DNA from: a virus
Length of the DNA stretch: 20,240 bases
IMG/VR virus record: IMGVR_UViG_3300020603_002130
Span: 1-20,240 of that record
Strand: one strand, 5' to 3'
Shown here: one piece after another, positions 7,179 to 19,650 of the stretch
Numbering within the stretch: position 1 is the first letter of the stretch
How the letters are laid out: every line of letters begins with the position of its first letter
Made by a program: the position numbers and the translations under genes
Notes under the pieces: generated by a model
Databases searched by the model: none
Seen by the model: only the letters and a program-made list of their open reading frames with translations
Told to the model about the DNA's origin: nothing

Positions 7179-7185
7179 CTAAATA
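7179..7185 (+). promoter_or_regulatory. CTAAATA late-promoter-like motif close to a start codon
   Basis: CTAAATA ends eight bases before ATG 7193. T4 late promoters place transcription start about six bases past the box, which here would give a nearly leaderless transcript. The same CTAAATA occurs in the terminator loop at 13503-13509. No matching -35 is seen and no Shine-Dalgarno sequence precedes ATG 7193. Confidence 0.35.
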
Positions 7186-7192
7186 TCAAACT

Positions 7193-7729
7193 ATGCCAAA
7201 GCAAGATACCATTTATCAAAACCTAGATCGTATACACAGCAGTCCCAATGTTATTGACACATTGGTTGAAGTTGACCGCATTCTTGATCGTATGGATGTT
7301 TATGCTTACGAAAACTGGCTCAGCGGTGAAGTTGTTGACGGCCCATTTGTAGAGCGTCATTGGGTTGACCTAACACTAATGTACCCACAAAAAATGATGC
7401 CCAATCCTGATGCTGCTATGCGTTTGGTCAAAAACGGCTGTAAGGTCAAATACGGACGCGATGTACTTGAAACCTTTGCTAAAGTTAAATCTTCAGATGA
7501 CATTGTTACCAATGAAGAAACTGGTGAGCGCACTCCTAGAGTAATAGCCAAACATGTATGGCTGGTAAATTTACGAATTCCCAAAACTCTAATAGATGTC
7601 AGTGAAGATATCAAGGACATTGACGACATTGATTATGACAGTGTTGATGCAGCCTATTCAGAAGAGCTTGATGGGGCTCAAGGTTTATTAAATAAGTCTC
7701 AATCACAAGAAACACTAGAAAATAAATAA
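7193..7729 (+). CDS. Conserved phage protein of unknown function
   Basis: This encodes 178 residues. The middle contains a compact block, WVDLTLMYPQKMMPNPDAAM followed by LVKNGCKVKYGRD, then a strand-rich part that ends KHVWLVNLRIPKTLIDV. The C-terminal 45 residues are strongly acidic (DIKDIDDIDYDSVDAAYSEE) and probably disordered. I recall a similar block in marine T4-like phages, without a known function. No Shine-Dalgarno sequence is seen before ATG 7193; the only nearby signal is the CTAAATA motif. The gene is followed within four bases by the next one, so the two form a unit. An acidic tail could be a virion assembly or nucleic-acid-mimic feature, but this is only a thought. Confidence 0.6.
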   Translation: MPKQDTIYQNLDRIHSSPNVIDTLVEVDRILDRMDVYAYENWLSGEVVDGPFVERHWVDLTLMYPQKMMPNPDAAMRLVKNGCKVKYGRDVLETFAKVKSSDDIVTNEETGERTPRVIAKHVWLVNLRIPKTLIDVSEDIKDIDDIDYDSVDAAYSEELDGAQGLLNKSQSQETLENK

Positions 7730-7733
7730 CAAA

Positions 7734-8222
7734 ATGATAAAGCAGCGAAAGTACAAACTTAGAGAAAATCTACGTTGCGATGATCTTAAAGATTTGGTCA
7801 GCGAGCTCATTGAAATTGATCGTCACAAACCCAAGCTAGGTTCTGAAGAAAATACTGTGGTCCTTTGTTTTAAAATCAACAATGCCAATGCTGCCGAGGA
7901 CCTTGGTGGATTTTTAGAATGGAGTTCGGCTGGTATCGATGATGTTGAAGTAAGTGATGCCAGCGACCAGGACGGCAAATTTCATGTGTACATTGAAATC
8001 AAAAGACTTCCGGGCCTTACCCAAAAGATCTTAGACATAGTTAAAGATATTGAACACATTACCGGGGTCCTACAATGGAAATTTGCTGGTATGAACGGCA
8101 AAAGACAGGACTTGACATTAGGTGATCTTAGTAGTACAATAGTTCAAGATCCAAAGCTTTATCTGCTACCAGCAGAGAGCCGCGATTATTATTTGAGGAT
8201 GAAAAACTTAACTAAGTACTAA
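7734..8222 (+). CDS. Conserved phage protein of unknown function
   Basis: This encodes 162 residues. The N-terminal part is basic and helical (IKQRKYKLRENLRCDDLKDL), followed by a strand-rich, acidic middle (LGGFLEWSSAGIDDVEVSD, KFHVYIEIKRLPG) and a C-terminal QDLTLGDLSSTIVQD...RDYYLRMKNLTKY. No family name is recognised. It follows the previous unknown gene closely, and its stop shares bases with the IF-1 start (TAATG, 8220-8224), which suggests that the two are translated together. An internal promoter for IF-1 lies within its 3' end. Confidence 0.6.
   Translation: MIKQRKYKLRENLRCDDLKDLVSELIEIDRHKPKLGSEENTVVLCFKINNANAAEDLGGFLEWSSAGIDDVEVSDASDQDGKFHVYIEIKRLPGLTQKILDIVKDIEHITGVLQWKFAGMNGKRQDLTLGDLSSTIVQDPKLYLLPAESRDYYLRMKNLTKY
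8112..8140 (+). promoter_or_regulatory. Sigma70-type promoter inside the upstream gene, ahead of IF-1
   Basis: TTGACA (8112-8117) is followed after 17 bases by TACAAT (8135-8140), a full -35 match and a five-of-six -10. The start would be near 8147, giving a leader of about 75 bases before the IF-1 ATG at 8222. It lies within the coding sequence of the preceding gene, so chance cannot be excluded. Confidence 0.5.
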
Positions 8223-8446
8223 TGTCTAAAGAAGAAAGTTTTACCCTTAAAGGGCAAATTACTGAGGCCTTACCCAACGCTCTATTCCGGGTTGGACTAG
8301 AAACAGGACAGAACATTCTAGGACACTTGTCTGGAAAGTTAAGAATAAATAAAATTACCATAATCCCCGGAGATTATGTAGATATTGAAATGAGTCCATA
8401 TGATGTGACCAAGGGTCGTATCGTATATAGACATAAAGGACAGTAA
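8222..8446 (+). CDS. infA: Translation initiation factor IF-1
   Basis: This encodes 74 residues, the typical length of bacterial IF-1 (72 in E. coli). The OB-fold signatures are all visible: an opening MSKEESFTLKG, LPNALFRVGLETGQ (family LPNxxFRVxLENG), ILGHLSGKLRINKITIIPGD (family xxHISGKMRxxxIxIxxGD), and SPYDVTKGRIVYRHK (family TPYDLxKGRIxxR). IF-1 binds the A site of the 30S subunit and works with IF-2 and IF-3 to form the initiation complex. The start shares bases with the previous stop (TAATG); no Shine-Dalgarno is close by, though GAGGA lies about 21 bases upstream. The phage copy is divergent from the E. coli protein in the first strand and the tail, and so may change rather than just replace host IF-1. 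Sure of the family, not of the effect. Confidence 0.95.
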   Translation: MSKEESFTLKGQITEALPNALFRVGLETGQNILGHLSGKLRINKITIIPGDYVDIEMSPYDVTKGRIVYRHKGQ

Positions 8447-9253: not shown

Positions 9254-10081
9254 ATGAGCATACAGCATTACCGCACCTTAGGTATTCCTCCCGGCGCTAC
9301 TGAAGAAGAAATCAAAAAGGCTTATCGTAAGCTAGCCTCTATGCATCATCCTGACAAAGGTGGTGATACAAAAAAATTTCAAGAAATTCAAACTGCTTAT
9401 GATGTATTAGTTAAAGAAAAAAATACCAAACAAAACACTCATAGCAGATTTGACGACTTAGAAAATATTTTTAATATGGGTCGTAGAGCAGCAGGCGGCT
9501 ATGATCCTTTTGCCCAATTTGGTTTTAGAACGCATGCAGATGCTGGACAGGTAAGAAATCCAGATATCACGCTAAATGTACCCTGCAGCCTCGAAGAAGC
9601 ATTTCACGGATTTACCAAAACCATCGAATTTGTCTTGCCCAATGGCGAAGAAAAACGATTGGTTGTAACATTCCCTACAGGAACAACACCTGATATAAAA
9701 ATTCGCTATGCCGGCGATGGTGTAACAATGATCAACAGTCGTCCTCCTGGTGATGTTTATGTTAAACCGAATATTCAGGACCATGATATCTGGACTTTGA
9801 GAAAAAATGATCTGTTTACTCAGATCAAGATTAATGTTTGGCTAGCCATGTTTGGTGGTACAATTCAAATCACCGATATTACAGGTTCTTTGTTGGATAT
9901 AACTGTTCCTGCAGGCACACAAGATGGCACCCAAATTAGGCTCAAGGATCGAGGATTTGTTATTCGTGGTTCTTCTCAACGAACCAACGCCTATATTTTG
10001 ATTCATGTTGAAGTACCAAAATTAAGCGAGCAGGACCTTGAAAAACAACTCAATGAATTTTACAAGCCAAAAACTAATTGA
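9254..10081 (+). CDS. DnaJ-family (J-domain) co-chaperone without zinc finger
   Basis: This encodes 275 residues. A J domain (about 4-56) with the HPD tripeptide at 32-34 and the family's [11 protein letters not shown] and [12 protein letters not shown] helices is followed by a Gly/Phe-containing linker (72-100) and by the C-terminal substrate domains (101-255), with the usual GDVYVKP and GGTIQI blocks. The cysteine-rich zinc module of DnaJ is absent, so it is a type II, CbpA-like protein. J proteins stimulate DnaK ATPase and hand over substrates; no DnaK is present, so the host one would be the partner. The start ATG 9254 has only a weak TAGGT site. The end overlaps the -35 box of the deformylase promoter. 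Confidence 0.93.
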
Positions 10082-10106
10082 CACTACTTTAATGTCAGTG
10101 TATAAT
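10078..10106 (+). promoter_or_regulatory. Perfect consensus sigma70 promoter before the deformylase gene
   Basis: TTGACA (10078-10083) and TATAAT (10101-10106) both match consensus exactly, with a 17-base spacer. The predicted start, about seven bases past the -10, falls at or one base before ATG 10114, so the mRNA would have no leader. No Shine-Dalgarno sequence lies in between. The -35 box overlaps the stop codon of the DnaJ gene. Confidence 0.85.
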
Positions 10107-10113
10107 AAATCAT

Positions 10114-10641
10114 ATGATTGAATTAAAGCTTGTTGAAAGCAATGATCCAATACTGACAATGACCATGCCAGCCGTTGGTGACGATGTTGACCTAACCCAA
10201 CTGTCCAAAGACATGTTTATGGTCATGTGGAGCAATGGCGGTATAGGCCTTTCTGCGCCACAGGTTGGTATGGCTCTAAGAATGTTTGTAATGGGTAGTC
10301 AACAAGGACCCAATTATGTTTGTATAAATCCAGAGGTACTTGATACCAGCGCAGACTTGGTTGTTGCACAAGAAGGGTGTTTATCCTACCCAGCACTTTG
10401 GTTAAATATCAAGCGACCATCTTGGGTACAAGCACAATATCGTACCCTAAATGGTAAATTGATCGAGCAACGATTTGAAGGATTACTAGCAAGGTGCTAC
10501 TTACATGAACTAGATCATTTGAATGGTACAGTGTTTATAAATTATGCTGGAAAACTCAGCTTAAAAATGGCACTTGCCCGTCAAAGAAAAAAGTTAAAAG
10601 GACAAAATGAATCCAGAAGAAAACAACAACAATCGAATTAA
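10114..10641 (+). CDS. def: Peptide deformylase
   Basis: This encodes 175 residues, full length for the family. All three motifs are present: GIGLSAPQVG (43-52), with Ser instead of the more common Ala at the sixth position, EGCLSYP (87-93) with the metal ligand C89, and HELDHLNG (131-138) with the two His ligands and catalytic Glu. The enzyme removes the N-formyl group from the starting Met of new proteins as they leave the ribosome. Phage forms are known, mainly from marine phages, and usually lack the C-terminal helix; here the tail is basic ([17 protein letters not shown]). It overlaps the ClpA gene by 35 bases. It stands immediately behind a consensus promoter and may be read from a leaderless transcript. 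Confidence 0.96.
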   Translation: MIELKLVESNDPILTMTMPAVGDDVDLTQLSKDMFMVMWSNGGIGLSAPQVGMALRMFVMGSQQGPNYVCINPEVLDTSADLVVAQEGCLSYPALWLNIKRPSWVQAQYRTLNGKLIEQRFEGLLARCYLHELDHLNGTVFINYAGKLSLKMALARQRKKLKGQNESRRKQQQSN

Positions 10642-12823
10642 CGAAGTTATTGCTCGCGCATTTCAAGAAGCTCTTAACAGAGAGCATGAATATGTTACGC
10701 TTGAGCATATTTTGCGTGTCATGCTGGACGAAGACGAGATTCGAGATGCTCTTATGGAACTCGAAGTCAATGTTGAGCTTCTCAAAGAAGAAATTGACAG
10801 CTGGCTGCGCGAACAAAGCGACATTCATGTTGAAGGTGTCACTAAGCCGCGTAAAACCGCGACCCTAGAGCGTTGTTTTAATCGTGCTTATACACAGGCT
10901 ATTTTCACAGGTCGCGGTCACATGGAACCACTGGATCTGCTGATCAGTATTGCCAGTGAAAAGAATAGTCATGCCAACTTCTTTCTGGCTAAGAACGGTG
11001 TCACTAAAGAAACCATCATTAACTATGTTGGCAAGCTCAAGGATGGTCGTAGCAAAGAAAGCAAGACTGCCAAAAAACGCGACAACGAAAAGCTTCTCAA
11101 CAAATACACCACGAACCTCAACAAGAGTGCCGAAAAGCAACTGATTGACCCACTGATTGGTCGAGAGCGCGAAGTACTCCGCCTTGCACAAACTCTAACT
11201 CGCAAGAAAAAGAACAATGCCATCATGGTTGGTGAGCCAGGTGTTGGTAAAACTGCCATTGTTGAAGGCCTTGCAGTTGCTATTATTCGTAATGAAGTAC
11301 CCGAGGTATTGAAAAAGAAAACAATCTACAACTTGGACATGGGACGTCTTCTGGCAGGTACACGCTATCGCGGAGACTTTGAAGAGCGTATGCAACATGT
11401 GCTTGAAGCACTGGAAGAACGCGATGATGCTATCCTGTTCATTGATGAAATTCACATGATCATGGGTGCAGGCTCAGCTGGTCAAGGTAGCATGGATGTG
11501 GCCAATTTGTTGAAACCAAGCCTTGAAAAAGGCAAGCTGCGTTGTATTGGCAGCACAACCTATGAAGAGTTCCGTGAAAACTTTGAAAAAGACCGTGCCC
11601 TGCTGCGTCGCTTTACTAAGATTGACATTGAAGAACCCAGCGTTGACGATACCAAGTCCATGCTACGCAGAATAGCACCATTGTATGCTGATTACCATAA
11701 GCTGACTATTACCGATGATACCATTGATCTAGCAATTGATCTCAGTGTGAAATATATGCTGGACAAAAAGCTGCCAGACAAGGCCATTGACATCATTGAT
11801 GCAACCATGGCCAATCTTCGTGTAACCAACTGCCCAGTAGGACAATTACTGACCAAGGACGATATCCGTCATGAAATCAGCGCACTAACTCGTGTACCCA
11901 TTGAGCAACTGGGCGAACAAAAGAATGTGGCAGTGGCCGACCTTGAAAGTCGTATGCGTACTAATGTGTTTGGCCAAGACGCGGCTATTGAACGGCTCAT
12001 GAACATGGTTTATATTGCCAAGAGCGGTCTCAAGGAAATTAACCGCCCAATGGCTAATTTCTTGTTTGTTGGCCCCACTGGTACAGGTAAAACTGAACTA
12101 GCACTGCAACTGGCACAAGGCCTGGGCATGGAACTGATTCGTTTTGACATGAGCGAATACCATGAACCACACAAAATTGCATCCTTGATTGGATCACCAC
12201 CGGGCTATGTGGGCTATGGCGAAGGCAAAGCAGGTTCGGGTAAATTGATTAATGAACTTGAGCGTGTGCCAAACTGTGTGCTGTTATTTGACGAAATTGA
12301 AAAAGCACACCCTGCTGTAATTCAAGTTCTATTGGGAATCATGGACAACGGTATTGTTACTGGCAGCGACAACAAGCAGGCCAGTGCCCGCAATGCCTTT
12401 GTTATTATGACATCTAACTTGGGTGCCGTAGACGTTGAAAAGCAGGTAATTGGCTTTGGCGGAGGTTTCAATGACGGCGCCAGCGAAGAAGCAGTCAAGC
12501 GTTTCTTTGCACCTGAATTTCGCAACAGGCTTGATGCAGTGGTCAAGTTTAACAGACTTGAAAAAGAAATTATTCAGCGCATTGCTGATAAATTCATGCG
12601 TCAAATCCGCGATCAGTTAGCAGGACAAGGTCAGACTATTGTATACACTGACGATGCCCTGGCTTGGCTTGCTGTCAATGGACACAGCGACACTATGGGT
12701 GCAAGGCCAATGAGACGACTGATCAATGACAAGGTTAGATTACCCATTGCTAAACGAATTATCAAAGAAAACTGTACTGTACACACAATATCAGTGCATA
12801 ATGGCGAGCTAGAAATTTCATGA
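10607..12823 (+). CDS. clpA: ClpA-type AAA+ unfoldase
   Basis: This encodes 738 residues, close to E. coli ClpA (758). An N domain with [13 protein letters not shown] (28-40) is followed by two AAA+ modules. D1 has GEPGVGKT (209-216), LFIDEIH (277-283) and arginines 334-335. D2 has GPTGTGKT (489-496), [11 protein letters not shown] (559-569), the pore loop GYVG (533-536) and the sensor 2 GAR (698-700). The coiled-coil M domain of ClpB is absent, so it is not a disaggregase. IGF (615-617) sits where ClpA and ClpX hold the tripeptide that docks on ClpP, so the protein should feed a host ClpP. No ClpP or ClpS is in the window. AAGG at 10598-10601 supports the start. It is coupled to the deformylase gene and to the next gene. 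Confidence 0.94.
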
Positions 12824-13473
12824 TTATTCGCGATACACAAAAACTGTTTTGGAAACAATGGCCCATAAAGATTGTCATTCGTGCCAATGTCAGTAGATCT
12901 CATGCAAATTTAAACGTAGCTCGATTTGAGTTGAAAAAACCATATTTTCTAGACCTAGAAGACCGTCAGAAAAAACTTCGAGAAGTAGGAGAAATAATTA
13001 AGGTCGTTAAAAAAGAAGTGCCTGCCGCAGGTGTAAGACGAGAAGGTAATGTCAGTGTTTTTGTGTCCACTGAAAAAGAACTAGAAAAGATTCTCGGTCT
13101 ATATTCACATAGAATTGTTGAAGTGTGGAAGCCAAAAAATGATAAAGCCAAACGATTGCTGTTTGAGCATACTGCTGATGTGGTAAGAGAAAGACCATGG
13201 TATGGTCGATTCAAAATACGGGCCCGAATACTGTATACATCACATCTTAAAAACGAGATTGAAAATTTTAAAGCAGCCGTTAATTCCTTAGAACAAAATT
13301 CCTGGCATGCTGCTGGTTTGTTAATGAATATTTTAAAATCCGTAAACAGCATAAACTCGTATGCTTGGGGTCAGCCGCTGTATCTTTATTTGTCTTCCAA
13401 TGATGATGCTGCCTTGCTTAAACTGCAATGCGGTACAGTTATTGAACGTTTTGAAAGAATAAGAGCACCTTAA
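12820..13473 (+). CDS. Unknown protein coupled to ClpA
   Basis: This encodes 217 residues starting in the ATGA that ends the ClpA gene (12820-12823), so translational coupling is likely. It is basic, with strand-rich segments (KIVIRANVSRSHANLNVARF), RERPWYGRFKIRARILY, a helix EIENFKAAVNSLEQNSWHAAG, and a final part with SYAWGQPLYLYLSSNDD and LLKLQCGTVIERFERI. No family is recognised. No signal peptide or membrane segment is seen, so it is likely cytoplasmic. Its fixed position behind ClpA suggests that it may be an adaptor, an inhibitor or a substrate of the unfoldase, but nothing in the sequence proves this. It ends before the terminator at 13492. Confidence 0.65.
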   Translation: MIIRDTQKLFWKQWPIKIVIRANVSRSHANLNVARFELKKPYFLDLEDRQKKLREVGEIIKVVKKEVPAAGVRREGNVSVFVSTEKELEKILGLYSHRIVEVWKPKNDKAKRLLFEHTADVVRERPWYGRFKIRARILYTSHLKNEIENFKAAVNSLEQNSWHAAGLLMNILKSVNSINSYAWGQPLYLYLSSNDDAALLKLQCGTVIERFERIRAP

Positions 13474-13491: not shown

Positions 13492-13525
13492 AAGCCTCCG
13501 CGCTAAATAGCGTTGGAGGCTTTTT
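13492..13525 (+). terminator. Rho-independent terminator before the tail block
   Basis: AAGCCTCC (13492-13499) pairs with GGAGGCTT (13515-13522), and T5 runs 13521-13525. The loop holds a second inverted repeat, CGCT (13501-13504) with AGCG (13509-13512). It closes the ClpA-containing operon 19 bases past the last stop. The 3' arm also contains GGAGG (13515-13519), the ribosome site of the next gene. Confidence 0.9.
13503..13519 (+). promoter_or_regulatory. CTAAATA late-promoter-like motif in the terminator loop, plus ribosome site
   Basis: CTAAATA (13503-13509) lies in the loop of the terminator. By T4 late-promoter spacing, transcription would start near 13515, which is the first G of GGAGG (13515-13519); ATG 13528 follows after eight bases. 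Such a transcript would lack the left arm, so the site would be free, whereas read-through from upstream would hide it in the stem. Confidence 0.45.
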
Positions 13526-13527
13526 CT

Positions 13528-13692
13528 ATGGCGAAAATACACGAAGAATTGGTTGTAATCAAGGTCAGCTCACTGCATAAAAACGATGAAGATGTTGCCC
13601 CTGTGCTCGGTGAAGAGATTGTTTCTAATCTTGAAGCAGTGGTACAACAGCTGGTTGGTACGAACGCAATTGTTGAAATTGCCAAGGAATAA
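13528..13692 (+). CDS. Small conserved phage protein, first gene of the tail block
   Basis: This encodes 54 residues: it begins MAKIHEELVVIKVSSLHKND, continues with an acidic helix (EDVAPVLGEEIVSNLEAVVQQ) and ends LVGTNAIVEIAKE. The layout is strand-helix-strand. I recall similar short genes in marine T4-like phages near virion genes; no function is known. It is supported by GGAGG at 13515-13519, by its tight spacing to the next gene (three bases), and by the frame being open from the start to TAA 13690-13692. Confidence 0.65.
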   Translation: MAKIHEELVVIKVSSLHKNDEDVAPVLGEEIVSNLEAVVQQLVGTNAIVEIAKE

Positions 13693-13695
13693 CCT

Positions 13696-14064
13696 ATGAG
13701 TATACGTAACACAAACATGCTAATCGCCAATGGTCAACTGGATCAAACCGGACCCTCTATTCGTGCTGATGGATACTATGGTTTTGCAGACGGAATGCAT
13801 ACTGTTGGTTTTTATCTAAAAAATTTCAAAGGTAGGCTGCTCATAGATGCTAGCCTAAGCGATAATCCAAGTGAAAGCGATTGGTTTCCTATAGGATTAG
13901 GAAGCGATACCGATTACTTCAATGTCGAAAACGCGGCAACCAAGGTTGAAACTTTTAACTTAATAGGAAACTTTGTTTATCTAAGAGCAAAAATTGCAAG
14001 AAGTCATTTGGGTGAGCCAGTTTCGGCATTAGGCACCTGCCAACGAGTAGTTCTAAGCCTATAA
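13696..14064 (+). CDS. Probable virion structural protein
   Basis: This encodes 122 residues with a strand-rich pattern (GYYGFADGMHTVGFYLKNFK, RLLIDASLSDNPSESDWFPI, NFVYLRAKIARSH), without a signal peptide or membrane segment. The strand-rich layout and the position at the head of a tail-fibre block suggest a small virion or fibre-associated protein. AAGGAA at 13684-13689 lies within the end of the previous gene and supports ATG 13696. No family is recognised. Confidence 0.6.
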   Translation: MSIRNTNMLIANGQLDQTGPSIRADGYYGFADGMHTVGFYLKNFKGRLLIDASLSDNPSESDWFPIGLGSDTDYFNVENAATKVETFNLIGNFVYLRAKIARSHLGEPVSALGTCQRVVLSL

Positions 14065-14086
14065 AAGAATAAACAGGAGAAATAAA

Positions 14087-14998
14087 ATGCCAATTAAAGC
14101 GTCTTCGGGAGGACAACTAGGCGGCGGAGGTGCCAGCGGCAGCGGCGCAGTCTCTAGTGTTAACACAAAGACTGGAGCAGTAGTTCTAAGTTCTACTGAT
14201 ATCGCTGAAGGTACAAGTAACTTGTACTTTACTAACTCTCGCTGGGATGCAAGACTTACTGCTAAGTCAACCGACAATCTAAGCGAAGGTTCTACTAACA
14301 AGTATTTCAGTAATTCACTTGCTAGAAATGCTGTGTCGGCTGGTACAGGTCTGAGCTACGACATTTCAACTGGTACTTTTAGCACCAATATCAGCCCATC
14401 AACAACAGACAATGTCGCTGAAGGTGTTTCAAATTTATACTATACTAATGCAAGATTTGACACGCGCCTGGGACAAAGCAATTTAGCTCAATTGTCCAAT
14501 GTAGTCGACACAATACCAGCAACTGGCCAGGCATTGGTCTGGAATGGTAATAGCTGGGCACCAGGCACGGCTGGAGACATTGAAGGTGGCGGCAGCGGTG
14601 TATTCCGTGCCGTGGTTCAAGTTGATTACGATCCATCCGGTAACCTATTAAGCGTAAGTGTATTGGGTGGTGGTATCACTGCTGCAATTGCAACAGCAAC
14701 CAGCACAATAGCTGCCGTAATATTCACTTTTGTTGGAAGCGTGTGTGCTCCGCTTGGCGTTCAAGTATATGGTTATCAAAGAGTAAACAATGTTTATGTT
14801 ACAAGAGCATTGGGCAGTGACTTTAGTTCAAGAACATTGGCAGGAGGTGGTAGTTCAGGCAGCCCGGACGCATTCGGTCCGTTTAATCCAAGTGTAAACA
14901 CTATGACATTGAGCTTGACTAAGGCACTGACTGGCGCCACAGCCTCGGTTGGCCAGACAACTCACTGCGTAGTACAATTTTTACTAAGTTCAACATAA
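14087..14998 (+). CDS. Tail-fibre protein with LYFTN-type repeats
   Basis: This encodes 303 residues. After a Gly/Ser-rich N terminus (8-20) come three repeats of about 21 residues each: TDIAEGTSNLYFTNSRWDAR (37-56), TDNLSEGSTNKYFSNSLARN (62-81) and TDNVAEGVSNLYYTNARFDT (107-126). This motif occurs in many phage fibre proteins and is thought to form part of a trimeric beta-rich stalk. A segment LAQLSNVVDTIPATGQALVW with NGNSWAPG (133-160) is another common fibre module. The C-terminal half is strand-rich and Gly/Ala/Ser/Thr-rich, probably a tip domain. AGGAG at 14075-14079 supports the start. It shares repeats with the 740-residue fibre farther on. A receptor role is inferred. Confidence 0.8.
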   Translation: MPIKASSGGQLGGGGASGSGAVSSVNTKTGAVVLSSTDIAEGTSNLYFTNSRWDARLTAKSTDNLSEGSTNKYFSNSLARNAVSAGTGLSYDISTGTFSTNISPSTTDNVAEGVSNLYYTNARFDTRLGQSNLAQLSNVVDTIPATGQALVWNGNSWAPGTAGDIEGGGSGVFRAVVQVDYDPSGNLLSVSVLGGGITAAIATATSTIAAVIFTFVGSVCAPLGVQVYGYQRVNNVYVTRALGSDFSSRTLAGGGSSGSPDAFGPFNPSVNTMTLSLTKALTGATASVGQTTHCVVQFLLSST

Positions 14999-15007
14999 GG
15001 ATAATCG

Positions 15008-17008
15008 ATGTCTATTAATGCTTGGAAAACCACTTTTATCGGGTTAAACAAGCCGGCAAAAGTAATTGCCGGGGTTGCAGAATCTTTTATTCCAATGACG
15101 CTTTGGCCGTATGCCAACGCCACCGATGATCCTTATTGGTCAGGCGGATCAAATCCACAATATTTTCGTTGGGAAGTCACATTCACCGTCGGTGATCGCT
15201 CACATGGTAGTAATCTAACTCGCACACCTTTTGCATTCAATGCTCAAGATATAGAAGTAGGTGACTTTGTTGCTGGTGCTGCCGACGGCAAGGTTTGCCA
15301 AATTATGAGCATCAGCCAAAAAGATAATAATTCACTGACTGCCGTAGTCGAAGATAGGTTACGCTACAATACCTTCCGCGATCCAACTGGCTTTGGTTTG
15401 TTTAATGCTCCAGGTCCTGTGATCTTTTTCCAGATTAACGAACTAGGTTACCCAATGCTGGACCCTGTTCCAGGTGAAGCAGCGGCTGACTTCTTTACCA
15501 ATGTTATGAGTAGGTTTCAGTACATGAATCCACTTACAAATTACCTGCTGGAACAATCAGACCATGGATTTGAGCAAGGCGATGCAATCTGTATTGAAGA
15601 CGGCATTTTTTCTCTAAGTGATCCAGACAACGTTGATCGCTTTATTGGCACAGTGGTATTTTCAGGTCCGGGACCAGATCAATTTATTTTACGACCAGCC
15701 AATGGCATCATTGACTTTGTTCCTGGACTTCCTGGTGTAGTTGGAGATTACTTGTATCCAAGTATAGACGGTAGCGGCGACCTAACTACCAATGACGACA
15801 GTCGTAGACCAATTTATTTAAAGATAGCCAATGCAATCACAACATCAACTACAGGCACGGGCATAAACCCAGGTGGTACAGATGGGGACATAGTTGAAAT
15901 CAATAAAACAATGATTACATTGGCCAGTGGCAATGGCACTTATACTCTAGATAATGCAGTGACCTTGATCAACAATAAAACATCTGATCATAAAGTCTCG
16001 GCAGTCAAGGTCGGTGCGGCCACAGGAACAGCCAGCAACATCAGTGGGCAAGGCAGCGCATATGGTGTTGTAGTAGGTTATACTCCTTTTTCTGCATCGA
16101 TCAACGGCGTTACAGTGAACTTCACTACAACTACTAACGGTAGCACAGTCTACGGTGAACCTAGTGTAGCAAATGCCACCGACATGGTGTCAGATATAAA
16201 TGCCGCAGGAATTACTGACATTGTAGCCAGTGTGTTAAATGGAAGTTTAATTAAATTAAGTAATAGTGTAGGCGGTGCAATTAATATTGTTAATATAAGC
16301 AATGACACCAACGGAAAGCCATTTGCGGGTGCAAACAGTATTTCTAGTTTACAAACCACAACACCTGCCAATACAACAGCATTTGCGTTGAGACTGATTA
16401 GAGCCGATGGCGGACCACTTACCATTAGAGATTTCAATGGTGTATTTTTTAATACTGCTGGTGTACTCAGTGGACAAAATGGTCGCTATGCACTGGGACT
16501 CAACATTGAACAAGGTCTGCGCTCAAGCCTGACTAGCGTGGTTGCAGACATTGCTGCCCGCGATGCACTTTATCCTTTGGTTGGTGACCAAGCCTATGTG
16601 ATTGACGACGGCAACGGAGAATGGGCATTGTTCTTGTGGGACGGTAGTCAATGGAACAGATTCCAGAATCAACGCAGTGAAAGCACTGATGCCAGTACCC
16701 TTAAACAAACTATAAATTTACCCCAGCCTGGGCAAACCTATTCAATCCTTGGTGCTGTAACTGCTGGTCGCAGAATATTCAATGTTGCTGTAGTTGTCAA
16801 CAATGAACTTGCGATCGTTGGTGGTAATGATTTTACTGTTGAAATTGGTAACACTGCTGTATGGGAATATAGAAAGCATGGTTCTAATAAAGTAGGTTCC
16901 TATGCAGTAGACACTCAATTAATTACAAACGCAAGACAAGATGTGAAAGTAAATCACCCCAATGGCGGAACAGCAGGTAACTTTACAGTAGAGGTATCCT
17001 ATATATGA
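15008..17008 (+). CDS. Large virion/tail-fibre protein
   Basis: This encodes 666 residues that look strand-rich throughout, with no membrane segment. The N-terminal 270 residues are aromatic and Gly/Pro-rich (PYANATDDPYWSGGSNPQYF). The middle is low-complexity Gly/Thr/Asn/Ser. Residues of about 512-552 contain VADIAARDALYPLVGDQAYV, then GEWALFLWDGSQWNRF, a module seen in many phage fibre and virion proteins. The C terminus (about 560-666) is a separate beta-rich part. AAGGAT just upstream supports ATG 15008. It overlaps the next gene by ATGA. The exact place in the particle cannot be told; a fibre or tail-tip component is the best guess. Confidence 0.7.
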   Translation: MSINAWKTTFIGLNKPAKVIAGVAESFIPMTLWPYANATDDPYWSGGSNPQYFRWEVTFTVGDRSHGSNLTRTPFAFNAQDIEVGDFVAGAADGKVCQIMSISQKDNNSLTAVVEDRLRYNTFRDPTGFGLFNAPGPVIFFQINELGYPMLDPVPGEAAADFFTNVMSRFQYMNPLTNYLLEQSDHGFEQGDAICIEDGIFSLSDPDNVDRFIGTVVFSGPGPDQFILRPANGIIDFVPGLPGVVGDYLYPSIDGSGDLTTNDDSRRPIYLKIANAITTSTTGTGINPGGTDGDIVEINKTMITLASGNGTYTLDNAVTLINNKTSDHKVSAVKVGAATGTASNISGQGSAYGVVVGYTPFSASINGVTVNFTTTTNGSTVYGEPSVANATDMVSDINAAGITDIVASVLNGSLIKLSNSVGGAINIVNISNDTNGKPFAGANSISSLQTTTPANTTAFALRLIRADGGPLTIRDFNGVFFNTAGVLSGQNGRYALGLNIEQGLRSSLTSVVADIAARDALYPLVGDQAYVIDDGNGEWALFLWDGSQWNRFQNQRSESTDASTLKQTINLPQPGQTYSILGAVTAGRRIFNVAVVVNNELAIVGGNDFTVEIGNTAVWEYRKHGSNKVGSYAVDTQLITNARQDVKVNHPNGGTAGNFTVEVSYI

Positions 17009-17415
17009 AAAATTTTAACAACGCAGCAGGAACTACCTCAAGCGAGTTTGCTATTGGTGTTGGTAACGCTAATTGTAGACAAATTGCACTTGGTGCTGTT
17101 TGTTTAGGTGCTGACACTGTAGCCGTAGATCGCAATGGTAATAACATTGCCATTACTGGCACAGAGTTTTATGATCTAAAATTTTTGGCCACAAATCAAC
17201 TTGGTCAACGAGTTGCCAAACAGTTTCGCGGTACCATTACTGACACGGCTTTTGTCAGTAAAATTGAAGATATATTTGAAGAAGAGTTCAATGGGGACAT
17301 TGAACTCTCAATTTCAACCCAGATGTCAGCTATTGAACTTGTGATTACATGCAAGATTGGTTCTGCCACCACAGCAACATACAATGTTTATGTTACGCTG
17401 CAAAGAATTGAATAA
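17005..17415 (+). CDS. Small virion-associated protein
   Basis: This encodes 136 residues starting in the ATGA that ends the previous gene (17005-17008). It is strand-rich, opening with FNNAAGTTSSEFAIGVGNAN and then CRQIALGAVCLGADTVAVD; it contains three Cys and an acidic segment (KIEDIFEEEFNGDIEL). Coupling to the 666-residue protein suggests that the two act together, perhaps as fibre and accessory or fibre and assembly factor. No family is recognised. Confidence 0.6.
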   Translation: MKNFNNAAGTTSSEFAIGVGNANCRQIALGAVCLGADTVAVDRNGNNIAITGTEFYDLKFLATNQLGQRVAKQFRGTITDTAFVSKIEDIFEEEFNGDIELSISTQMSAIELVITCKIGSATTATYNVYVTLQRIE

Positions 17416-17427
17416 TAGGAGATAAAA

Positions 17428-19650
17428 ATGCCAGGTTTACTTGAAGGTAAAGTATTTGTTAAAATTAGCGAGCTTGATGCTACTACTACATTTGATACCG
17501 ATGATGAATTCGTGTTGGTACGAAATGGTGTCACGGTCAAAACTACTGGTATTGATTTCGTTGACACTGTGGTTGGAATTGGCAATCTTGCAACAAAAAG
17601 CTACACTGACGCTGCCGTAGCAGCACTGGTTGCCAGTGCGCCCACTACGCTTGATACTCTAAGCGAATTATCGGCTGCTCTCAATAACGATGCTAACTTT
17701 GCCAGCACTATCACCAATCAACTGTCTGCAAAACTAAATGCTAGTGATTTTGGACTAAAATTTTGGAACGAGTTGGCCACAGTAACAACCTATCATGTTG
17801 CCGAAAGTCCAACCAACCTATACTTCACTAACGCTCGTGCTAGAGCAGCCATAAGTGCCGGCACAAATATCTCCTACGATCCGGCAACTGGTGTTATCAG
17901 TGCAGCTGGTGATTTTGTTGGACCAACATCGGCCACAGACAACGCTATTGTTAGATTTGACACCACCACCGGAAAACTGGTTCAAAACAGTTTGGTAACA
18001 ATTTCAGACGCGGGTGCAATCATTGCGCCCACGGGAACTGGATCAGTCATTCCGTTCCTTTTTGATAACCAAGCAAATTTCCCGAGTGCTGCCAGTGCTC
18101 ACGGAGCCATTGCACACAGTCATGCAGATGGCAAAATGTATTTTGCACACGCAGGCGCATGGCATGCATTGATTTCATCGATTGACTTACCAGGCCTGAC
18201 GAACCTTGGACAATGGACAACGAGCGGCAGCAATATCTACTTCAACTCCGGTAACGTCGGCATTGGAACATCGAATCCATCCAGCAAACTTGAAGTAAAT
18301 GGCACCATTACTGCAACAGGTCTAAATGTAGAAAATATTGCATTTACTGGTACAGGCCCAGTAACATTTGCCAGTGGGAATGATCTAATTTTTGAAGCCG
18401 AAGGCGATATCTATTTCAACGGTGGCCAGCTTGTGCCGACAGGTATTCAGGGACCACAAGGTCCGGCTGGTGAACACATCACTGCTGCCGCTGTTAACAG
18501 CTCTGGCGACTTAATAATCACAACCAGTGACAATAATGTAATTAATGCTGGTAATGTAATTGGTCCACAAGGATTACAAGGAATACAAGGACTTCAAGGG
18601 TTACAAGGACTTCAAGGGTTAGAGGGTATTCATGGAGACACAGGCCTTGGATTCGTGCTTACATCTAGCACATTTATGACGATTCCGCCCGATGGCCTAC
18701 TAGAAACGAAATCGTTTAACACAAATCTTACAGCCACCCAATCAGCTTTTGTAGTTGGCAGCAGAGTAAAAATTATATCAACAGCCGATACAAGCAGTTA
18801 TATGGAAGGCCCAGTTACTGCATTTTCATCGAATGTGATGACTGTTGATGTAGTTAAAACCAACGGCATTGGCGTCGCCAATTCGTGGAATATAACTATA
18901 GCAGGTGAAACAGGTGCTACCGGCCCACAGGGAGTACAAGGCGAACAGGGCGAACAAGGCGAACAGGGCGAAACAGGATCAGCAGGGGGAGCTACCTATA
19001 CTGTTACTAATTCTGAAAGTGGTGCTTATGTAATTATTGGATCCAATAATCCTACTCTTAATCTTATAAGAGGATTTACTTATTATTTTTCTATATCCGC
19101 TAGTGGTCATCCGTTTTGGATAAAAACAACTCAAACAACTGGTACAGGTAATCAATATAATACCGGTGTAACCAATAATGGTACCGATAATGGTACCATC
19201 ACATTTATCGTTCCTTTTGATGCACCAAGCACATTATATTACAATTGCCAACATCATGCGTCAATGGCAGGTACTATTAATACTAGTGATCTTGGGCCCA
19301 CAGGCCCACAGGGACCACAGGGCGAACAGGGTGAACAGGGCGAACAAGGCGAACAGGGAGAAACAGGTACCGGCCTTGTTTTAAAGGGTACAGTAGCGAC
19401 AGTAGCTGAGCTTCCTGCTAGTGGAAATACCACTGGAGATCTATGGGTTGTCGCTGCCACAGGCGATGGATATGTGTGGAACGGCACAACTTGGGTTAAT
19501 GCCGGTCCAATTCGGGGACCGGGTGTTGCCGGCGGCGGAACTGCCGGTCAACTATTGGTCAAGGTTGATGGAACAGATTACAATACAACATGGGCTAGTC
19601 TTAGTTCATTGTTTGATTCGTTGTCAATCGACGGTGGTTCATTCGATTAA
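17428..19650 (+). CDS. Tail fibre with collagen-like stretches and a cupredoxin-like domain
   Basis: This encodes 740 residues. Residues 55-105 hold a fibre module (TKSYTDAAVAALVASAP, LDTLSELSAALNNDANF). Residues 121-158 repeat the YFTNARA and ISAGTNISYDPATG motifs of the 303-residue fibre. Residues 271-300 hold NVGIGTSNPSSKLEVNG, another fibre module. Collagen-like Gly-X-Y runs lie at 339-348, 379-405, 493-519 and 623-649. Between the last two runs (about 523-622) sits a cupredoxin-like domain with ligand-type residues H561 (SGHPFWIKT), C607, H610 and M613 (YNCQHHASMAG), matching the Cys-X2-His spacing of blue copper proteins. A final C-terminal part is Gly/Thr-rich. AGGAG (17417-17421) supports ATG 17428. 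Such fibres bind surface receptors; any copper binding is inferred. Confidence 0.85.
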   Translation: MPGLLEGKVFVKISELDATTTFDTDDEFVLVRNGVTVKTTGIDFVDTVVGIGNLATKSYTDAAVAALVASAPTTLDTLSELSAALNNDANFASTITNQLSAKLNASDFGLKFWNELATVTTYHVAESPTNLYFTNARARAAISAGTNISYDPATGVISAAGDFVGPTSATDNAIVRFDTTTGKLVQNSLVTISDAGAIIAPTGTGSVIPFLFDNQANFPSAASAHGAIAHSHADGKMYFAHAGAWHALISSIDLPGLTNLGQWTTSGSNIYFNSGNVGIGTSNPSSKLEVNGTITATGLNVENIAFTGTGPVTFASGNDLIFEAEGDIYFNGGQLVPTGIQGPQGPAGEHITAAAVNSSGDLIITTSDNNVINAGNVIGPQGLQGIQGLQGLQGLQGLEGIHGDTGLGFVLTSSTFMTIPPDGLLETKSFNTNLTATQSAFVVGSRVKIISTADTSSYMEGPVTAFSSNVMTVDVVKTNGIGVANSWNITIAGETGATGPQGVQGEQGEQGEQGETGSAGGATYTVTNSESGAYVIIGSNNPTLNLIRGFTYYFSISASGHPFWIKTTQTTGTGNQYNTGVTNNGTDNGTITFIVPFDAPSTLYYNCQHHASMAGTINTSDLGPTGPQGPQGEQGEQGEQGEQGETGTGLVLKGTVATVAELPASGNTTGDLWVVAATGDGYVWNGTTWVNAGPIRGPGVAGGGTAGQLLVKVDGTDYNTTWASLSSLFDSLSIDGGSFD
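18562..18642 (+). repeat. Collagen-like Gly-X-Y run (residues 379-405)
   Basis: Nine triplets read GPQ GLQ GIQ GLQ GLQ GLQ GLE GIH GDT. The middle is a repeated nine-base unit (ggacttcaa, ggattacaa and variants), so slippage could change the copy number. Confidence 0.85.
18904..18984 (+). repeat. Collagen-like Gly-X-Y run (residues 493-519)
   Basis: Triplets read GET GAT GPQ GVQ GEQ GEQ GEQ GET GSA. The GEQ units use ggcgaacag or ggcgaacaa, almost identical to the run at 19294. It leads directly into the cupredoxin-like domain. Confidence 0.85.
19294..19374 (+). repeat. Collagen-like Gly-X-Y run (residues 623-649)
   Basis: Triplets read GPT GPQ GPQ GEQ GEQ GEQ GEQ GET GTG. It follows the cupredoxin-like domain, has one GEQ more than the run at 18904, and shares its codon pattern, as expected from duplication. 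Confidence 0.85.

Follow-up and report, generated by a model that had tools for sequence, protein, structure and literature searches.

A 39-base hairpin as a candidate early-to-late switch in T4-like phages

The locus and its hairpin

The window, meaning the whole stretch of DNA analysed, is a 20,240-base IMG/VR record, a fragment, with T4-like genes that include a clamp loader, a ClpA-like ATPase and a tail fibre (PHROG matches). An early promoter of the sigma-70 type (TTGACA-17-TATAAT, 12/12 match; + strand, 10078–10106) lies just ahead of a peptide deformylase gene, and the relatives L123 and L133 have an 11/12 promoter match at the equivalent place. The putative early operon that follows (10114–13473, + strand; ORF list, Pfam PF01327 and phrog_4871) comprises the genes for peptide deformylase (10114–10641) and the ClpA-like ATPase (10607–12823) and, as the last of the run, a 217-aa ORF (12820–13473). 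The only terminator-like site that the terminator scan gave on the + strand within the operon is at 13302, inside this last ORF. The hairpin of interest starts ∼18–19 nt past the stop codon of the 217-aa ORF, and that stop is ∼30 nt before the TAAATA contained in the hairpin. An early operon upstream of the element had been proposed from the letters alone, and the 12/12 promoter, together with the position of the hairpin behind the last gene of the run, bears this out.

The gene behind the hairpin (13528–13692, + strand), first of the late run, encodes a 54-aa protein with the start MAKIHEEL and falls below the 60-aa limit of the ORF listing. This protein has no PHROG or Pfam match and no relative in INPHARED. 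Downstream on the same strand are putative virion and tail genes of 122, 303, 666, 136 and 740 aa (13696–19650; ORFs, PHROG), three of the five with PHROG matches (virion structural, structural and tail fibre); it is on these three that the putative label ‘tail genes’ for the run is based. Elsewhere in the window, a phage-borne 74-aa ORF (8222–8446) matches translation initiation factor IF-1 (Pfam PF01176, E 1.4e-23) and also falls in PHROG 30201, a family without assigned function. A protein-handling cluster, consisting of a DnaJ-like protein, peptide deformylase and the ClpA-like ATPase, extends over 9254–12823.

Read from the sequence, the element consists of AAGCCTCC (13492–13499), GCGC (13500–13503), TAAATA (13504–13509), GCGTT (13510–13514) and GGAGGCTT (13515–13522), followed by a T5 tract (13521–13525) and the ATG (13528–13530), all on the + strand. 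The MFE fold (−19.8 kcal/mol) has an outer helix of nine pairs, in which AAGCCTCCG (13492–13500), the anti-Shine-Dalgarno arm, pairs with TGGAGGCTT (13514–13522), then a bulged U (13513), an inner helix of four pairs (13501–13504 with 13509–13512) and the tetraloop AAAU. The Shine-Dalgarno (SD) sequence GGAGG (13515–13519) is 8 nt ahead of the ATG, and the first two T of the T5 tract, which would form the terminator U-tract, also pair with A13492 and A13493. The sequence-only reading had described 13492–13530 as a terminator hairpin with CTAAATA, GGAGG in the right arm and T5, and these letters are as it gave them. It had further placed CTAAATA in the loop; the core (13503–13509) is indeed at the hairpin apex, but it is not purely loop, the first T and the last A of TAAATA being paired.

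In a 91-nt context, the fold has a z of −2.7 against dinucleotide shuffles, and the window has a single CCTCC-TAAATA-GGAGG in this arrangement, with none appearing in 100 shuffles. A stable GC-rich hairpin with U5 directly behind it, at the end of an early operon, has the sequence features of an intrinsic terminator. A simple terminator scan of the window did not list the 13492 hairpin, probably owing to the bulge. An Rfam search of the window gave no match, and blastn of the element against INPHARED gave nothing convincing.

We also considered a palindrome created by divergent promoters, which was rejected for the window, where the minus strand has neither a TAAATA nor a divergent gene. Such a palindrome may explain two pairs of sites in T4 (W03), 116428/116478 and 77337/77384; there, divergent late promoters overlap and each SD is complementary to that of the other, giving SD-pairing hairpins for both genes.

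The late promoter and its predicted start

The T4 late promoter, TATAAATA, spans −13 to −6, and that of the Aeromonas phage Aeh1 is CTAAATA, from −12 (PMC1524935). When the T4 spacing rule from the same work is applied to CTAAATA at 13503–13509, these bases occupy −12 to −6 and the predicted late +1 is 13515, the first G of GGAGG, so that the late transcript would be missing the 5′ arm. A late start at ∼13515, at GGAGG itself, had been proposed on the basis of T4-like spacing, and the published rule returns the same position. Over the full window, TAAATA shows no enrichment (13 seen, 17.7 expected). In G001, a 285-kb relative carrying the same 54-aa gene, no hexamer is more enriched ahead of genes (28 occurrences where 3.4 are expected), and TAAATA also ranks first in this position in T4 and two cyanophages. 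A late sigma of the gp55 type is also encoded by G001, with a match to the PHROG ‘sigma factor for late transcription’ (E 1.1e-78); thus, this relative has both marks of T4-type late promoters, TAAATA upstream of late genes and a gp55-type sigma. A sharp spike of TAAATA-N5-ATG in G001 would place +1 six bases past the last A, which corresponds to 13515 in the window.

The N5 spacing is of interest in its own right. TAAATA stands exactly 5 nt ahead of the ATG in 10 genes of G001 (examples at L146–L160) and in 11 genes of the Pelagibacter phage HTVC008M (examples at L189–L196), where ∼0.1 is expected per position, and in none of T4, Syn9 or Syn1. The annotated starts agree in HTVC008M, among them those of a base-plate gene and of the genes for the tape measure, head completion and DNA end protector proteins. 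The examples that were read have no Shine-Dalgarno. Counting without annotation also gives a clear excess over permuted hexamers (16 vs 7.0 in G001 and 14 vs 5.6 in HTVC008M), which is smaller than the excess by gene calls because random ATGs are also counted. The T4 rule predicts that these late mRNAs start with AUG, that is, that they are leaderless. The window has one TAAATA-N5-ATG, at 7723–7734 (gene at 7734), and a spacing two bases wider at 7180–7193 (gene at 7193).

Conservation and recurrence of the element

The 80 loci with the 54-aa gene gave 61 distinct upstream regions, a count that includes related sequences. TAAATA is found within 60 nt of the start in 50 of these. A stem with GGAGG in its 3′ arm is present in 13, all of which retain both TAAATA and GGAGG, and TAAATA without the terminator stem is present in a further 37. 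Related genomes that keep the stem without TAAATA or GGAGG, which the sequence-only reading had named as evidence against itself, were thus not encountered. Four or more U follow the stem in 10 of the 13 stem-bearing orthologues, whilst L434, L442 and L443, which form one sub-branch, retain the stem with a U-tract of only UUU and then CA or AA. Since the U-tract has decayed in these three and the SD-pairing stem has been kept, termination may be the weaker, maybe less constrained half of the switch.

The inner helix varies among relatives yet remains paired (CGCU/AGCG in the window, CGCU/AGUG in L123, AAG/CUU in L131 and ACUG/CAGU in L453). MAFFT alignments (A1, A2) misplace the 5′ arms, and covariation was hence tested by swapping arms between sites, all with CCTCC, rather than by column counts. 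Own arms gave −17.5 kcal/mol and swapped arms −13.0 kcal/mol, a mean cost of 4.5 kcal/mol. The native mean was reached by 0 of 10,000 permutations for all sites and by 1 of 10,000 for the orthologues alone, in a test that does not fully remove shared ancestry.

The predicted leaders of the 54-aa family differ from phage to phage, with a hairpin, an ordinary SD leader or no leader. In ∼12 of the 61 regions (e.g. L433, L447, L465, L489 and L502) TAAATA is 10–13 nt ahead of the ATG, which predicts a leader of 0–2 nt. L130 and L134 (upstream of 5001) have a weaker variant, in which a CCAAaTAAATActataTTGG stem pairs part of the SD and has no U-tract behind it.

A pattern scan that requires both arms is biased to hairpins. 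We therefore rely on a scan for TAAATA..GGAGG..TTTTT with the 5′ arm unconstrained, and on a control scan with an A-tract instead of the U-tract. An SD-pairing arm was called at p ≤ 0.01, that is, where the fold energy was better than that of 99% of arm shuffles; fold energy was preferred to the number of paired SD nucleotides, a weak statistic as about half of the shuffles pair too. The tally was restricted to the scan's own loci, none of them chosen for the arm. SD-pairing arms were found at 18 of the 28 sites combining CTAAATA, GGAGG, a U-tract and an ATG (0.28 expected), compared with 1/15 for the A-tract control and 0/7 for sites lacking the ATG. The hairpin therefore goes with the late promoter, SD, U-tract and start codon jointly.

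As with the orthologues, the scan counts include related sequences, and the 44 hairpin sites precede 17 clusters of downstream genes. The element recurs ahead of at least 15 unrelated genes; those behind it include a head-tail adaptor, a tryptophan halogenase, an HNH endonuclease (L228) and a second ClpA-like protein. Four cultured cyanophages (Syn1, S-RSM4, Sf-CH1b and S-CAM1) have it directly behind the gene 43-uvsX-41-mazG cluster, in the order DNA polymerase, uvsX, primase-helicase, mazG, one or more small genes and then the element. A site in G001 (240068) has an SD-pairing hairpin with TAAATA and a U-tract ahead of a 162-aa gene, and another (95394, minus strand) has a strong SD-pairing hairpin with TAAATA, without a U-tract, ahead of a neck gene. 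To judge from their genomes, many other T4-like viruses of seas and lakes carry the same arrangement. The 39-base element is not unique to the window locus, being present in relatives and cyanophages. In Syn9 no site folds better than its shuffles and in HTVC008M only 1 of 10 does; the device is therefore not general in T4-like phages. What the sequence itself shows is the anatomy of the element, its conservation, the co-retention of its parts, their specific co-occurrence and the gene context.

Two neck (head-tail adaptor) genes, at G001 95394 and L021 191, both have TAAATA inside an SD-pairing hairpin. The stem sequences of the two are unrelated, and one has a U-tract whilst the other does not.

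A proposed two-lock switch and its rivals

We read the element as an early-to-late switch of a T4-like phage, combining a terminator, SD hiding and a late promoter, with a probability of roughly two in three. Termination, the translation block and the late start site in the cell are what we infer. RNA polymerase starting at the sigma-70 promoter (10078) and running through the early operon would transcribe the whole hairpin, and much of the early transcription would end at the U-tract. Termination there may be partial, since the U-tract has only five U, two of which are also paired with the 5′ arm. In RNA that reads through, GGAGG would be buried in the stem and the 54-aa gene would go untranslated. 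A gp55-type late polymerase on the apex CTAAATA would make RNA from ∼13515, without the 5′ arm; in this RNA neither the terminator nor the hiding of GGAGG would be possible, and it would be translated.

The calculated cost of opening GGAGG in the window is 12.6 kcal/mol in read-through RNA vs 2.4 kcal/mol in late RNA (from 13515), and the medians of the 44 sites are 14.1 and 2.2 kcal/mol, respectively. TAAATA-to-GGAGG spacing peaks at 5 and 8, and +1 falls 0–3 bases before GGAGG in 42 of the 44 sites, with +1 set at GGAGG for the five closer-spaced ones. An early/late switch was what had been proposed for the locus at the outset, and co-retention in the orthologues, the start given by the T4 rule and the upstream early operon all support it. 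We lean slightly towards the broader view that two-lock switches of this compact kind are widespread among marine and freshwater T4-like phages, where they would have evolved repeatedly and would mark the border between early (often replication) and late genes.

The arrangement could also be a matter of compact packing without regulation, in which an ordinary terminator and an ordinary late promoter share bases in a short intergenic space and GGAGG pairing is a by-product. Packing fits the position of the hairpin behind the last early-operon gene and the presence of a U-tract in 10/13 orthologues, and a terminator arm rich in GC can accommodate GGAGG. However, it does not readily account for stems that persist despite U-tract decay (L434, L442, L443) or for the G001 neck gene (95394), whose strong SD-pairing hairpin contains TAAATA but lacks a U-tract. 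Placing a terminator just upstream of a late promoter also costs nothing, and T4 87218 and 155867 appear to be so placed; we regard packing as unlikely. The same three orthologues and the neck-gene hairpin, none with a proper U-tract, would suit a ribosome-site lock only, in the style of T4 e, soc and I-TevI, for which T4 provides the precedents (PMC3014915, PMC2988022). Early read-through would then be free, the effect would be on translation alone and the U-tract would be incidental. An incidental U-tract is hard to reconcile with SD-pairing arms at 18/28 sites with a U-tract vs 1/15 with an A-tract, and U≥4 right behind the SD is rare elsewhere (7/157 in G001, 1/134 in Syn1 and 2/111 in T4), making a lock of this kind quite improbable.

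Some cyanophage copies have the upstream stop at the stem or inside the promoter (−7: Syn1, L091, L223), which would fit a translation-controlled terminator: the ribosome ending the upstream gene would cover the 5′ arm, block the hairpin and admit polymerase and ribosomes downstream. In the window and its relatives, however, the stop is ∼30 nt before TAAATA and ∼18–19 nt before the stem, farther than a terminating ribosome usually reaches, and we give this explanation very little credence. Finally, a terminator might by chance hold TAAATA in its apex, given that this is one short element and that TAAATA is unenriched across the window. Against this are the 0/100 shuffles, the conservation and compensatory change among orthologues and the recurrence ahead of at least 15 unrelated genes, which leave chance a negligible probability.

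Relation to known systems

Gene timing in T4-like phages is usually described in terms of promoter choice plus a few ribosome-site hairpins. With one set of bases serving as terminator, late promoter and ribosome site, a single change of start site would switch transcription and translation together. The element is directly testable in its cultured carriers Syn1, S-RSM4 and S-CAM1. In genomes of uncultured phages, in which promoters are poorly predicted, it would further be of use in marking the early/late border; in pelagimyophages, late-promoter searches failed (PMC7029224).

In the T4 genes e (lysozyme), soc and 49, a hairpin has the SD in its 3′ strand and the late promoter within its 5′ strand or immediately ahead of it; the long early transcripts are silent and the late transcripts lack the 5′ strand (PMC3014915). 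Similarly, the ribosome-binding sites of I-TevI, I-TevII, I-TevIII, segB and Aeh1 mobE are locked in read-through RNA and freed in late RNA, and the mobE and segF terminators sit inside their coding regions (PMC2988022). At the level of sequence, the element has the features of the e, soc and I-TevI type: its SD lies in the 3′ strand of a hairpin available only to read-through RNA, its late promoter lies within that hairpin, past the sequestering strand on the 3′ side, and the 54-aa gene is downstream of a putative early transcription unit with a predicted promoter at 10078, as the cyanophage copies follow the gene 43-uvsX-41-mazG cluster. It resembles e, soc and 49 in having the late promoter within a hairpin that hides the ribosome site in its 3′ strand, and differs from them in that the same stem, with the U-tract, makes a putative intrinsic terminator, and in its predicted late start, at the SD itself. 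An SD-pairing arm together with U≥4 behind the SD occurs at none of the T4 sites examined, and no description of a terminator, late promoter and SD on one stem was found among the open-licence papers searched. The coupling to a terminator, which had been called a step further than e and soc, is such a step at the level of sequence, termination itself being predicted.

I-TevI, I-TevII, I-TevIII, segB and mobE are homing-endonuclease genes in early or middle units, and the L228 copy of the element likewise precedes an HNH endonuclease; unlike the present element, their hairpins are not described as terminators at the ribosome-binding site. The late promoter of Aeh1 has the same core and the same −12 C as the element, and the whole Aeh1 record has one CTAAATA..GGAGG match, CTAAATACAAGTAAAGGAGG. 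The intrinsic terminators of T4-like phages (PMC1524935, PMC2988022) share with the element a GC-rich stem, a short loop, a U-tract and a position at the end of an operon; the element differs in that its apex doubles as a late promoter and its 3′ arm supplies the following gene with its ribosome site.
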